Shown here piece after piece: positions 5,969-35,883 of a stretch of DNA of 64,000 bases; within the stretch, counting starts at the first letter, position 1, and each line of letters begins with the position of its first letter. The position numbers and the translations under genes were made by a program. Where the stretch lies: positions 1 through 64,000 of the forward strand of contig NZ_JADFAJ010000012.1 of assembly GCF_015665295.1 (NCBI RefSeq), written 5' to 3'. The stretch is from Maricaulis sp. (lineage in GTDB: Bacteria; Pseudomonadota; Alphaproteobacteria; Caulobacterales; Maricaulaceae). Below the pieces are notes generated by a model, which was not told the origin of the DNA, did not search any database, and was given only the letters and a program-made list of their open reading frames with translations.

Positions 5969-7444
5969 ATGAGCGCCAAGAAACCCTTCCGACCCAAGGC
6001 CCGCCGTCCGCGCGGCTTTGAAGACCGCAGCGGGTCTGTCCTCCGGGTCGAGCGCCATCTGGTCGAGACCGCCAGCCGGATCTATGACGACTGGGGGTTC
6101 GAGCCGCTGCAGACCTCCGCTTTCGAATATGCCGACGCGCTCGGCAAATTCCTGCCTGACGAGGAACGGCCCAATGAGGGCGTGTTCGCGCTCGAGGATG
6201 ATGACGGGCAATGGCTGTCGCTGCGCTACGATCACACGGCGCCCCTGGCCCGTTTCGTGGCCGAGAATTTCCAGGATCTAAACAAGCCCTATCGCCGCTA
6301 TCAGGCGGGCGATGTGTGGCGCAATGAGAAGCCGGGACCAGGCCGTTTCCGCCAGTTCGTGCAATGCGATGCCGACACCGTCGGCGCCGGCAGCCCGTCT
6401 GCCGATGCCGAGATGATCGCGCTGGCCGCCGATGTCATGCGCGCGGTTGGCCTGGCCGATGGCGATTATGTGGTGCGGGTCAATGACCGCCGCATCCTCG
6501 ACGGCGTGCTGGAATCCATCGGCGCCGCCGATCCGGAGCGCCGCATGCGCGTGCTTCGGGCCGCCGACAAGCTCGACCGGCTCGGCCGCGACGGTGTCGC
6601 GCTCCTGCTCGGCGAAGGCCGCAAGGACGAGTCCGGCGACTATACCGAAGGCGCCAGGCTCGACGCGGCCGGCATCGACACGGTGCTCGGCTTTCTCGAT
6701 GCCGGCGGTGGCAGCCGCAGCGATGTGATCGCCCGCCTGGAGCCGCTGATCGGGACCTCCGAGACAGGCAAGGCGGGCCTCGCAGCGCTTGCCGAGATCG
6801 ATGCGGTGCTCAGCGCCATCGGCGTGGGTGTCGACCGGGCCCTGTTCGACCCGTCCGTCGTCCGCGGTCTTGGCTATTACACCGGACCGGTCTTCGAGGC
6901 CGAGCTGCTGGCGCAGGCCCAATATGAGGACGGTTCGCCGATCCAGTTCGGCTCGGTTGGCGGTGGCGGTCGCTATGACGATCTGGTCTCGCGCTTCACC
7001 GGGCAGGCTGTGCCCGCCACCGGCTTTTCCTTCGGGGTCAGCCGCTTCGCCGCCGCCCTGTCGGCCCTGGGCCTGACCGGTTCGGTCGAGGAGAAGCCGC
7101 TGGTGCTGGTCGTGGCCAGCGAGAAGGACCAGTCCGCTGCCTATCTGGCCATGGCACGCGAGCTGCGCGCCGCCGGGTTCCGCGCCGAAGCCTTTGTCGG
7201 CTCAGGCAATATGGGCAAGCAGATGAAATACGCCGATCGGCGCGGCGCGGTGGCGGCTGTCATCGTCGGATCGGATGAGCGCGAACAGGGCCTGGTCACG
7301 ATCAAGGATCTCAAGCTGGGCGCGCGCCTGGCTGCGGATATCAGCGATAACAAGCAATGGCGCGAAGAGCAGCCGGCGCAGGAAACCGTGTCCCGCGAGG
7401 GCTGGATTGCGGCGGTGTCCGCAGTCTCCCAACGCAACAAGTAG
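5969..7444 (+). CDS. hisS: Histidyl-tRNA synthetase
   Basis: Class II synthetase of 491 residues that charges tRNA-His in the cytoplasm. Visible signatures: the motif 2 region (RYDHTAPLARF and FRQFVQCDADTVG), the histidine-binding loop VVRGLGYYTGPVFEAEL, motif 3 GGGGRYDDL, and a C-terminal anticodon-binding domain (about 360-470). The loop reads RGLGYY where most bacteria have RGLDYY, as expected for the alphaproteobacterial branch known to use tRNA-His lacking the G-1 base (family knowledge). The start has GGAG upstream. It is transcribed alone; a strong terminator stands 165 bases after the stop. Confidence 0.95.
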   Translation: MSAKKPFRPKARRPRGFEDRSGSVLRVERHLVETASRIYDDWGFEPLQTSAFEYADALGKFLPDEERPNEGVFALEDDDGQWLSLRYDHTAPLARFVAENFQDLNKPYRRYQAGDVWRNEKPGPGRFRQFVQCDADTVGAGSPSADAEMIALAADVMRAVGLADGDYVVRVNDRRILDGVLESIGAADPERRMRVLRAADKLDRLGRDGVALLLGEGRKDESGDYTEGARLDAAGIDTVLGFLDAGGGSRSDVIARLEPLIGTSETGKAGLAALAEIDAVLSAIGVGVDRALFDPSVVRGLGYYTGPVFEAELLAQAQYEDGSPIQFGSVGGGGRYDDLVSRFTGQAVPATGFSFGVSRFAAALSALGLTGSVEEKPLVLVVASEKDQSAAYLAMARELRAAGFRAEAFVGSGNMGKQMKYADRRGAVAAVIVGSDEREQGLVTIKDLKLGARLAADISDNKQWREEQPAQETVSREGWIAAVSAVSQRNK

Positions 7445-32733: not shown

Positions 32734-33305
32734 GCGAAGCGCGCTTCCAAGCCGGCTTTCACGGCCGGCCATTCCTCCCGCAGAACCGAGAAGAAGACCG
32801 TGTCGCGCCAGTCGCCTGTCCAGCACAGGAGATGGCGGCGCAGCGTGCCTTCGCGGGTCGCCCCCATTTTCGTCATCGCCGCTTGCGAACGCGCATTGAG
32901 GTGATGGGTCTTGAGCTCGACCCGCTCGGCGCCGGCCTCGAAAGCACCGCCCAGCAACAGGTGTTTGGCCGCCGGGTTGACCCGGGTCCCGCGCGCGGTC
33001 CTGCCATACCAGGTCCAGCCGATCTCCAGCCGCCTGTGTTCCGGCGCCAGCGTCAGCCAGGCCGAATGACCGACCGCCGCCCCATCGCTTTGTCGGCGCA
33101 CCAGATGACTGACCTGTGTCCCGGCGCTCGTGCCCGACAGCATCAGGTCGAACCAGGTATCGAAATGCGGGCCGTCGCCACGCAGCGAGGTCAGCGCCCA
33201 GATCTCGGCCTCGTCAGCGAGCGGGCGAAGTTCCTCGCGATGGCCGTCCGTGAGCGGCTCAAGGCGGACAATCGCATTCTCGCGCACCATCGGGATTATG
33301 ATCAT
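32730..33305 (-). CDS. GNAT-family N-acetyltransferase (RimJ/RimL type)
   Basis: The 191-residue acetyltransferase has VRLEPLTDGHREELRPLA at the N terminus, the acetyl-CoA segment EIGWTWYGRTARGTRVNPAAKHLLL and the C-terminal VELKTHHLNARSQAAMTKMGATREGTLRRH. These features fit the RimJ/RimL branch that acetylates amino groups of proteins or small molecules; the substrate is unknown. ATG 33305 has GGAGG 6 bases upstream and overlaps the stop of the TauE/SafE gene by ATGA. Confidence 0.87.
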   Translation of the reverse strand: MIIIPMVRENAIVRLEPLTDGHREELRPLADEAEIWALTSLRGDGPHFDTWFDLMLSGTSAGTQVSHLVRRQSDGAAVGHSAWLTLAPEHRRLEIGWTWYGRTARGTRVNPAAKHLLLGGAFEAGAERVELKTHHLNARSQAAMTKMGATREGTLRRHLLCWTGDWRDTVFFSVLREEWPAVKAGLEARFA

Positions 33306-34045
33306 GCCGAACCTCCGACAAGCAAGAGCACGCCGCGCACCACATAGACGCCGCCGATGACCGAGACGATCCATTTCGTCCATTTGCGGAACTGGACATC
33401 GCTCATCAGTGCCAGGAAACGCGCGCCCGCCGTGGTGCCGAGAATGGCCAGCGGGGCAGCGACCAGCAGCCATTGCACGGACGGCAGGGAGGCGGCGGTG
33501 AGGGCGGGCAGGATGTAATAGGCGATCTTGACGCCATGGCTGACCACCTGGGTCGCCGCCTTGGTCGCCACAATGCTGCGCCGGTCGGTTTGCGTATCGG
33601 CGAAGAAGACGTCCAGCAGCGGGCCGGACACGCCGGCCACGACATTGAGACCGGTGACCACGAAGCCACAGGCCACGGCGTGGTGCGGCCGCGCGGCGTC
33701 GAGATGCAGGACGCGCTTGGGCAGCCAGATCACGGCTGGCACCAGTCCCAGGATGATGAAGAGCCAGGGTTTGGACAGTTCGAAACTGGCGAAGGCGAGC
33801 AGGCCGGCTGCGGCAGCCGAACCGGCGAGATAGATGGCCAGGGTGCGCCAGTCGATCCATTTGAGATGAAGGACGGCGCGCCAGCCATTGGACACGCTCT
33901 GGATGATGCCGTGAACCACCATCGCCGAGGCGACCGGCAGGACCAGCGCCAGCGCCCCCATCAGGATCAGCCCGCCCGCCATGCCGAACACGCCTGAAAT
34001 GAAGGCGGTCACAAAGGTCGCGAGCAGGAGAAAGGCAGCGGTCAT
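33302..34045 (-). CDS. TauE/SafE-family membrane transporter
   Basis: The 247-residue protein has about eight hydrophobic helices and the family start FVTAFISGVFGMAGGLILMGAL. TauE/SafE proteins are proposed exporters of sulfite or organosulfonates; specificity is not visible. It is translationally coupled to the downstream GNAT gene (ATGA overlap), an odd pairing that may hint at a common substrate. Confidence 0.85.
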   Translation of the reverse strand: MTAAFLLLATFVTAFISGVFGMAGGLILMGALALVLPVASAMVVHGIIQSVSNGWRAVLHLKWIDWRTLAIYLAGSAAAAGLLAFASFELSKPWLFIILGLVPAVIWLPKRVLHLDAARPHHAVACGFVVTGLNVVAGVSGPLLDVFFADTQTDRRSIVATKAATQVVSHGVKIAYYILPALTAASLPSVQWLLVAAPLAILGTTAGARFLALMSDVQFRKWTKWIVSVIGGVYVVRGVLLLVGGSA

Positions 34046-34140
34046 GCGCGGACTATATCGCCCCGTTCCGGTCCGGCGAGTCGGGAGTGCAGGCGGGTGT
34101 GAAGCTTGCGGAGCATAGCCAGAACTTGTGGTGTGCGGGT

Positions 34141-34410
34141 ATGTCGAAGTGGGGCCGAACTCTCAAGCGCTTGGCGACGGTGGTCCTGGCGCGAGGGCTT
34201 CGCTGGCGACCACGTTGCGCAACGGCGAATGCTGCGCTTTGGAAAAGCTGGGAGGAGACAAGTCGCGCGCTTGGGCTGGGCTTGCTCGGCCTGTCCCTGT
34301 TCGCAGGGAAGAGTGCTGCGCGGCCGGGCAGCTTTCTCGCGGGCATGTCACTGATTGTGACAGGCTGGGTCTGCGCCTTCTATCTCGGGCGCGGGGAGCG
34401 AGTGGAATGA
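34141..34410 (+). CDS. Small membrane protein, hypothetical (start uncertain)
   Basis: The 89-residue frame has a basic N-terminal half and two hydrophobic stretches near the end (LGLGLLGLSLFAG and FLAGMSLIVTGWVCAFYLG), finishing GRGERVE. Codon third positions are moderately GC-rich, better in the second half, so the real start may be downstream or at GTG 34087. The stop overlaps the next start as ATGA, which favours a real gene. I do not recognise a family. Confidence 0.4.
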   Translation: MSKWGRTLKRLATVVLARGLRWRPRCATANAALWKSWEETSRALGLGLLGLSLFAGKSAARPGSFLAGMSLIVTGWVCAFYLGRGERVE

Positions 34411-34652
34411 TGGCTGATGTCGAAATCGCGCTTTGGCCGGCTTGGGCAGTGCTCGCCTTGATGGCGACAGTCGTCGGGTTCGTGGTCCTCGCCGAGGAGA
34501 GCAAGCGGAAGGCCCGCCGAAAGGGCCAGGTCCGTCGGTCGGGTGTTCGGCATTTCGGACACACGCGGCGCTGCGCGGCACGCCCGCAACCGGAGAGGCA
34601 ATCGCGCTCCGCTCGCGCCGGACGCGGCTTCGGATTTGCGTTTTCCCGGTAA
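34407..34652 (+). CDS. Small single-pass membrane protein, paralogue A
   Basis: The 81-residue frame has one transmembrane helix (about 10-30, LWPAWAVLALMATVVGFVVL) followed by AEESKRKARRKG and a basic tail. The first 40 residues align with the small frame at 34668-34784 (shared LWP, LM-T-VGF-V-AEES-R). The tail after residue 40 has no counterpart and is Arg-rich. Translation is coupled to the previous frame by an ATGA overlap. By the positive-inside rule the tail is cytoplasmic. Function is unknown. Confidence 0.5.
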   Translation: MMADVEIALWPAWAVLALMATVVGFVVLAEESKRKARRKGQVRRSGVRHFGHTRRCAARPQPERQSRSARAGRGFGFAFSR

Positions 34653-34667
34653 GCCGGAGGCAGACCG

Positions 34668-34784
34668 GTGATCGGCGATCTTCAGGTCACCTTGTGGCCG
34701 CTCATGGTCTTCACAGGATTGATGGTGACGGCCGTCGGCTTTGCGGTCTTCGCCGAAGAAAGTCGCCGCCGGAAAGATCGGTGA
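34668..34784 (+). CDS. Very small single-pass membrane protein, paralogue B (38 aa, GTG start)
   Basis: GTG 34668 follows GGAGG by 7 bases and opens a 38-residue frame. It has a transmembrane helix (LWPLMVFTGLMVTAVGFAVF) and the end AEESRRRKDR, closely matching the first 40 residues of the preceding frame. The similarity between two adjacent short frames and the ideal ribosome site are the main evidence that both are real. No family is recognised. Confidence 0.55.
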   Translation: MIGDLQVTLWPLMVFTGLMVTAVGFAVFAEESRRRKDR

Positions 34785-34818: not shown

Positions 34819-35883
34819 CTAAGCCCCCGCCTGTTTCGCAAATCCCCACGCGGCCTCGGCCATCGGTTCCACGGCGGCGCCCATCTGCGACGCGGTGGCG
34901 TTGGAGGCATTGCCCTGCAAGGACCGGGCATAGACGCCCTGGATGATCGAGGTCAGGCGGAAAATGTTGTAGGCGAAGTAGAAATCCAGCGCCGGAATGC
35001 CGGCGCGGTTGGTGCGCTCGCAATAGGCCTGGGTGTATTGCTCGATCGTCGGGATACCCAGCGCTGCGATATCGACGCCCAGCAGGCCATTACGGATCTC
35101 CGGCGGCATGACCCAGCCCATCAGCTGATAGGTGAAATCGGCCAGCGGGTCGCCCAGGGTGGACAATTCCCAGTCCAGCACCGCGATGACGCGCGGTTGG
35201 GTGGGATGGAAGACCATGTTGTCGAGGCGATAATCGCCATGCACGACGCTGGTGCGTTCCTGCTCGGGGGCGGCCGTCGGCAGCCATTCGATCAGTCGGT
35301 CCATGGCCGGCACCGTCGCGGTCTCGGCGGCCCGGTATTGCTTGGTCCAGCGGCCGATCTGGCGCTGGAAATAATTGCCCGGCTTGCCGTAGTCGCCGAG
35401 ACCGGCGGCCTCGACATCAATCCCGTGCAAATGGGCGAGTGTGGCGTTGGAGGCGTCATAAATGGCGCCGCGCTCGGCCTTGTCGAGATCGGGCAGGAGC
35501 GGATCCCAGAAGATCCGGCCCTCGACGAAATCCATGATGTAGAATTCGGTGCCGATGACCTCGCGCTCCAGGCACAGCCCGTGCATGACGGGCGCCGGAA
35601 AACCCTGGCCACCCAGCGCTTTCATCACCCGGAATTCGCGATCGACGGCATGGGCCGACGGCAGGAGTTTGCCCGGCGGCTTGCGGCGCAGGACATAGGC
35701 CTTGCCCGGCGTCACCAGCTTGTAGGTCGGGTTGGACTGGCCGCCCTTGAACTGTTCCACCGTGAGCGGGCCGGCGAAGCCCGCCACATGGCCCGTCATC
35801 CATTCGGCCAGCGCCGCCTCGTCAAAGGCCAGCGCATCCACAACCGGCTTGGTGCCGGAAAAGCTGTCGTCGATCTCGCTCAT
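34819..35883 (-). CDS. Aminoglycoside-phosphotransferase-like kinase (ACAD10/11-type)
   Basis: The 354-residue protein kinase-like fold has VEQFKGGQSNPTYKL, YVLRRKPPG (ATP-binding Lys region), the catalytic loop HGDYRLDN (HxDxxxxN) and metal motif VLDWELS. This is the branch found beside or fused to acyl-CoA dehydrogenases, where it phosphorylates hydroxy-acyl substrates (4-hydroxy acids in mammalian ACAD10/11). It is not expected to modify antibiotics. Its start shares one base with the amidohydrolase stop (TGATG), so the two are coupled. Confidence 0.88.
   Translation of the reverse strand: MSEIDDSFSGTKPVVDALAFDEAALAEWMTGHVAGFAGPLTVEQFKGGQSNPTYKLVTPGKAYVLRRKPPGKLLPSAHAVDREFRVMKALGGQGFPAPVMHGLCLEREVIGTEFYIMDFVEGRIFWDPLLPDLDKAERGAIYDASNATLAHLHGIDVEAAGLGDYGKPGNYFQRQIGRWTKQYRAAETATVPAMDRLIEWLPTAAPEQERTSVVHGDYRLDNMVFHPTQPRVIAVLDWELSTLGDPLADFTYQLMGWVMPPEIRNGLLGVDIAALGIPTIEQYTQAYCERTNRAGIPALDFYFAYNIFRLTSIIQGVYARSLQGNASNATASQMGAAVEPMAEAAWGFAKQAGA

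Follow-up and report, generated by a model that had tools for sequence, protein, structure and literature searches.

Three short open reading frames on the plus strand, here called ORF1, ORF2 and ORF3, lie between two minus-strand genes in the Maricaulis sp. DNA that was analysed (Table 1; the window is this whole stretch, at its full length of 64,000 nucleotides). The initial annotation had described a cluster of tiny membrane-protein genes at this place, and coordinates, start codons and flanks were all found as claimed, with a strongly hydrophobic segment in each of the three products. Both the ATGA overlap and the GGAGG site that it had reported are present, but they do not share one junction, as ATGA joins ORF1 to ORF2 and GGAGG precedes ORF3. 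The suggested paralogy of ORF2 and ORF3 was borne out by 45% identity and 63% positives over 38 residues (BLASTP E = 9e-12, a single comparison).

Table 1. Coordinates of the genes and of the promoter and ribosome-binding elements at the locus (window positions).
Feature	Position	Strand	Remarks
TauE/SafE-family membrane protein, flank, outside the operon	33302-34045	-	Pfam PF01925, E = 1e-16
-35-like hexamer TTGCGG	34106-34111	+	TTGCGG, TTGTGG or TTGCAG just before the box in 11 loci
LexA box (candidate) GAGCATAGCCAGAAC	34111-34125	+	one mismatch to GAACN7GAAC; form GAGCN7GAAC
Degenerate -10 TGGTGT	34129-34134	+	17-nt spacing from the -35 hexamer
ORF1	34141-34410	+	ATG, 89 aa; membrane protein
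ORF2	34407-34652	+	ATG, 81 aa; ATGA overlap with the ORF1 stop
Shine-Dalgarno GGAGG of ORF3	34656-34660	+	from reading of the sequence
ORF3	34668-34784	+	GTG, 38 aa; single-TM micropeptide, ORF2 family
APH-type phosphotransferase-family protein, flank, outside the operon	34819-35883	-	Pfam PF01636, E = 4.8e-55

The initial annotation had made its proposal depend on conservation of the reading frames in relatives, a test that left it standing. Of the 18 other Maricaulis genomes ten were found to keep ORF1 and eight to lack it, so that, with the window's genome included, 11 of 19 genomes are carriers (tblastn, E 3e-5 or better). Ortholog E-values reach 1e-28 in the sequence search and 1e-39 in the profile search, the latter with a profile that contains these orthologs. 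In all ten other carriers an ORF1 of 86-90 residues is directly followed, at the same place, by an ORF2 of 31-42 residues. Selection was judged from close pairs only, synonymous sites being saturated or nearly so in distant ones. Four close pairs, three of which were drawn from three genomes and hence are not independent, gave dN/dS values of 0.22-0.29 for ORF1; for ORF2, three of the four gave 0.16-0.25 and the fourth showed one amino-acid change and no synonymous change. By the substitution pattern in these close pairs, the frames are real genes under purifying selection.

As far as the sequence searches reached, the ORF1/ORF2 module seems to be specific to Maricaulis, with nothing convincing outside the genus. 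The eight non-carriers, one of which (G008) is only 69% complete, gave no ORF1-profile match at E 0.1, and the neighbourhood of the TauE and APH genes is intact in all of them. Within the family (99 genomes, ORF1 profile) eight genomes were matched, namely seven Maricaulis and G039 at E 0.0088. The search of the class (385 genomes, with scoring limited to 13 candidates in each) returned the window's own genome only, and in a scan of 84,980 species, with one genome each and a single peptide pattern as seed, 7 of 34 stretches were confirmed, all from Maricaulis; distant relatives could escape both of these searches. Rejected as weak were the ORF1 matches outside Maricaulis (that of G039, one in G031 at E 0.001 and others with higher values), ORF2-profile matches in five genomes outside the genus (E 0.004-0.009) and many further ORF2 matches there at E 0.001-1. 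An ORF2 match in G052 reached E 6e-5 and was likewise rejected, the stretch holding a stop.

Hydropathy assigns one hydrophobic segment to ORF1, two or three to its counterparts in some relatives, and one each to ORF2 and ORF3, from which an inner-membrane location of the ORF1 and ORF2 proteins is predicted. Across the 11 ORF1 sequences 13 residues are invariant, including S36-W37-E38 (SWE). The N-terminus of ORF1 is mostly cationic and amphipathic to a varying degree, the best 18-residue hydrophobic moment near it being 0.45-0.79 in most carriers and 0.55 in the window. AlphaFold places helices at residues 3-21, 31-54 and 62-88 of ORF1, with a mean pLDDT of 64, and ORF1 is thus modelled, at low confidence, as a helical hairpin; ORF3 is modelled as one helix, residues 2-37, with a mean pLDDT of 87. 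None of the three proteins matched a Pfam or NCBIfam family above cut-off, and ORF1 matched no PDB sequence. Matches below cut-off were dropped as chance, in Pfam DUF3261 and L13e with ORF2 as well as DUF2244 (E 0.057) and B12D (E 0.53) with ORF3, and in NCBIfam two with ORF2 (E 0.067 and 0.11). As to a mobile origin, viral contigs gave 42 pattern matches of which none was confirmed, no PHROG match was better than E 0.58 and no relative of ORF1 was found in plasmids (tblastn, E 0.01); a search of PADLOC for defence genes gave none at E 1.

ORF2 and ORF3 each match the ORF2-family profile (E = 2.7e-20 and 2.8e-20, both sequences being inside the profile), and among the nine carriers within the 200-genome sample the window's genome alone has two strong matches of this family. 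A second match in G015 was left out (E 0.0016, inside a 197-residue frame), and the two carriers outside that sample, G011 and G013, have one ORF2 each as read from the locus. By this comparison the extra ORF2-family copy is a duplication, seen in the window's genome only. ORF2 stands at the ancestral position and consists of a single-TM micropeptide part of about 38 residues and an arginine-rich C-terminal tail of about 40 residues that was not seen in the ten relatives. ORF3 is of canonical length for the family, and its closest counterpart is the one ORF2 that G016 carries (63% at the amino-acid level, 67.5% at the nucleotide level). The dN/dS values towards G016 are 0.57 for ORF1, 0.66 for ORF2 and 0.22 for ORF3, each from few changes. 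Small as these counts are, the sequences suggest that ORF3 retains the old role and that ORF2 is drifting or specialising. In G005 and G002 a 96-residue frame with hydrophobic stretches and a TTG start within ORF2 was observed, which is possibly a third operon gene there.

The gap between the TauE and APH genes of the eight non-carriers holds neither ORF1 nor ORF2, and no GA(A/G)CN7GA(A/G)C on the strand of the operon; the opposite strand has two box matches, in G006 and G003, that each carry two mismatches. G006, the TauE of which is 90% identical to that of the window, shows by eye, in comparison with G016, an apparent promoter vestige that has lost its second half-site and still ends with an ATG. 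Carriers and non-carriers are interspersed on the TauE tree, where the best tree requires four changes and the well-supported branches (4 of 16 inner branches) force at least two; read on this tree, the module is one that was lost, or gained, more than once. As it is missing in 8 of 19 Maricaulis genomes, it is not essential. Beside TauE, several Maricaulis have a frame of about 155 residues (MSVTVI.SG.AA.VG..LGLGSL..P.WG..VVRL; loci L027, L030, L107, L108 and L109), which occurs with or without ORF1/ORF2.

Upstream of ORF1 a direct repeat GAACN7GAAC was found, exact in 8 of the 11 carriers and with one mismatch in the other three, namely the window, G010 and G002. This is the repeat given as the Caulobacter LexA box, GTTCN7GTTC (PMC12700426), on the opposite strand. 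A box matrix was trained on 30 exact boxes taken from in front of other genes in Maricaulis; a single gene, that of a 31-residue peptide, contributed 22 of them across 12 genomes. Scored with this matrix, the box of the window is the top site of the 64 kb on both strands; its 12.0 bits lie 0.8 above the runner-up at 11.2 and below the weakest training box (training range 12.3-35.3). With the 15-nt matrix from the same training boxes the upstream box outscores all other sites in every one of the 11 loci (6,332-6,506 sites per locus), that of G010 being as weak as that of the window.

The box fills the spacer between the -35 and the -10 element of a sigma70-like promoter. The -35 hexamer was matched by script in ten loci and by eye in L026 (TTGCAG), where the script had taken an upstream TTGTGG. 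For the -10 element relatives have TATAAT (G018), TATAAG (G001, G012 and G013) or TATAGG (G002 and G005); the promoter of G018, TTGTGG-N17-TATAAT, is intact. A standard sigma70 scan called no promoter, and it becomes visible only through the comparison of relatives. In 10 of the 11 carriers the start codon follows the box by 15-16 nt and the -10 element by 6-7 nt (L026 and L027 by eye, the latter with ATG 16 nt after the box); it is ATG in eight of these, TTG in G018 and GTG in G002. The remaining carrier, G010, has ACG at the usual place, its nearest in-frame start being a GTG two codons earlier. Given a start codon 15-16 nt after the box, the ORF1 mRNA is probably leaderless or nearly so.

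LexA was found in all ten genomes searched, and the same type of box lies upstream of lexA in the window's genome. Twenty chosen stretches of this genome, covering 22 of its 56 exact box sites, were read; by eye and from their translations the boxed genes presumably include recA, uvrA/ssb, a uvrD-type helicase, ruvC, an imuA-like and a YedK-like gene, and about half of the stretches have no recognisable SOS gene. The box upstream of the gene named recA by eye, GAACACAAGCGGAACatctatgg, closely resembles the operon box in G001, G012 and G013. Genome-wide, the 56 exact sites compare with 47 for the reversed control pattern; the repeat is thus hardly enriched, and the case was therefore built on position and conservation and not on a single match. 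From the same numbers, together with the share of stretches lacking a recognisable SOS gene, it follows that a lone box means little. The conserved box upstream of ORF1, however, points to induction by DNA damage. At the level of the genus, its position and conservation make LexA control of the operon very likely; in the window's own strain, where the box has one mismatch and the -10 element is poor, such control is still rather probable. No paper on Maricaulis together with LexA, or with DNA damage or the SOS response, was found in the literature covered, which leaves out most subscription journals.

Outside the window a second candidate was observed, a 31-residue TM peptide (MRRLVHDVSAATAVLGFAWMIAMWGSVLGAA, G000:C5:146140-146232, loci L063 and L088) with two exact LexA boxes upstream. 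Its family is present in 12 of 12 Maricaulis sampled, and 18 of 19 loci have an exact box no more than 150 nt upstream. Among 299 genomes of the order its profile gave matches at E 0.05 in 77. Of these, 60 belong to the window's family, 57 of them with E 0.001 or lower; the other 17, with E values from 8e-4 to 0.05, lie in other families and were left out. All of these 17 matches are partial, and 14 fall inside frames of at least 190 residues. This peptide is likely a candidate SOS division inhibitor and, likened by description, more likely to be the counterpart of the Caulobacter inhibitor SidA than is the operon of the window. As a consequence, the latter may be a second or backup SOS effector, and the presence of an SOS-boxed 31-residue peptide counts against the main reading of the operon that is set out below.

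Among the SOS-induced membrane proteins that were looked up, what is described is mostly a stop of septation (SidA, YneA and SosA as against DinQ). SidA is given as a 29-residue inner-membrane protein that interacts with FtsW (PMC4211646); YneA is reported to bind TM7 of FtsW, with structure predictions placing several other SOS inhibitors on the same protein (PMC13396833), and SosA is described as an SOS-induced membrane protein that blocks septation at a late stage (PMC6851548). DinQ is presented as an SOS-regulated single-TM peptide, the overexpression of which depolarises the membrane and lowers ATP, and TisB is named as a similar locus (PMC3567139). The proteins encoded in the window fit the group of SOS-induced small membrane division inhibitors in their small size and TM helix, as seen in hydropathy and predicted helices. 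With reasonable though not high confidence, the locus is therefore read as a LexA-repressed operon of small inner-membrane proteins, most likely an effector of a division checkpoint. The assumed mechanism starts with LexA bound to the GAACN7GAAC box between the -35 and -10 elements, whereby the operon would be repressed. Upon DNA damage, RecA would bring about LexA cleavage and the promoter would be released, with transcription expected to begin on the ORF1 start codon or immediately beside it and to yield a leaderless or nearly leaderless mRNA. ORF1 and ORF2 would be made together, with translation of ORF2 coupled to that of ORF1 in the window as in its nearest relatives. The ORF1 hairpin and the single TM helix of ORF2 may then function, probably in partnership, within the inner membrane and could delay cell division by TM-helix binding to the septal wall-synthesis complex, in the way of SidA or YneA with FtsW. 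Division inhibition by the ORF1 and ORF2 products is a guess by analogy to which we assign a somewhat less than even chance. More tentative still is the picture as a whole, i.e., a Maricaulis-specific two-protein SOS checkpoint in which a hairpin protein and a co-translated TM micropeptide would act on the septal wall synthase or on another inner-membrane machine, beside the second SOS micropeptide found throughout the family, from a leaderless promoter with the LexA box as its spacer, and with the micropeptide duplicating and changing its tail in the lineage of the window.

Several other readings have to be weighed against the division checkpoint. The DNA is high in G+C and 87 frames of at least 30 residues overlap 7 kb, so that open frames by themselves are little evidence; that the three are chance frames and their conservation an alignment artefact is nevertheless extremely improbable, being contradicted by ortholog E-values down to 1e-28, dN/dS values of about 0.2 and the near-constant spacing from box to start. 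The main rival is an SOS-induced membrane modulator of the TisB/DinQ kind, in which the cationic N-terminus of ORF1 and the TM micropeptides would reduce ATP or the membrane potential and hold back the cell during damage, with no specific target in the divisome. The amphipathic stretch near the ORF1 N-terminus beside TM segments in most carriers would suit it, as would the LexA box, for which DinQ is a precedent (PMC3567139). The 13 invariant ORF1 residues including SWE, however, in our judgement exceed the needs of a simple pore-former, and the window has no Rfam family at the gathering threshold (new RNAs would escape); a modulator is thus held to be unlikely, if worth keeping in mind. Less probable again is an SOS-controlled accessory of an inner-membrane complex outside division, serving respiration, transport or envelope repair. 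In its favour, single-TM micropeptides are here coupled with a larger membrane protein, but the flanking genes are on the opposite strand and of unrelated type, no known complex gene is linked, and matches to Pfam, NCBIfam (above cut-off) and the PDB are absent. The initial annotation had favoured subunits or regulators of membrane complexes in general; this may yet hold, but the conserved LexA box, which it had overlooked, is the stronger pointer.

For the species of the window itself, it is conceivable that the operon is decaying or that its SOS control has been lost. The GAGCN7GAAC box, the TGGTGT at the -10 position and the run-on tail of ORF2 would agree with this, as would the raised dN/dS of ORF1 and ORF2 towards G016 (0.57 and 0.66 against 0.22 for ORF3) and the lack of the genes in G006 in spite of its 90% identical TauE. 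Against it, ORF1 is intact and has all 13 residues that are invariant among the other ten carriers, ORF3 is canonical, the box still is the top-scoring site in 64 kb, and other pairs with the window give ORF1 dN/dS values of 0.18 and 0.26, from few changes and near-saturated synonymous sites. On balance, decay or loss of control is regarded as rather unlikely.

Compared with known systems, the division-checkpoint reading resembles SidA of Caulobacter crescentus, as both involve a small inner-membrane protein, LexA control and the same kind of direct-repeat box; likened by description, the Maricaulis locus differs in being a two-gene operon (three genes in the window) with a first protein of 86-90 residues. 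DidA, likewise from Caulobacter, is described as an integral membrane protein that is induced upon DNA damage and inhibits division (PMC4211646), yet as independent of SOS (DriD) and as binding FtsN, whereas the Maricaulis locus has a LexA box; this likeness, too, is by description. With YneA of Bacillus subtilis and SosA of Staphylococcus aureus, described as SOS-induced membrane proteins blocking septation, the locus shares its general type; unlike YneA with its LysM domain and SosA, whose C-terminal domain is extracellular, ORF1-ORF3 have no domain above cut-off. TisB and DinQ of Escherichia coli are alike as SOS-regulated TM peptides, but ORF1 is longer than these and has a partner coupled to it, and DinQ is described as being countered by a small RNA in the style of a type I toxin-antitoxin system, while in the window no Rfam family was found at the gathering threshold.

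SOS division inhibitors vary from one bacterial group to another, and homology searches often miss them on account of their small size; a conserved LexA box fixed beside a start codon offers a homology-free way to candidates. If confirmed, the locus would provide an SOS effector of two membrane proteins and a comparison for the convergence of unrelated SOS peptides on FtsW, as well as a checkpoint gene that is both lost and duplicated inside one genus.

Elsewhere in the window's genome, a LexA-type box (GAACAAGATAAGAAC, G000:C10:93196-93210, locus L068) was observed between divergent frames, which by eye we take to be a ROK-type sugar kinase and the cell-cycle regulator DivK; judged from its place in the sequence, this box could be a link between SOS and the DivK-CtrA circuit, or chance.
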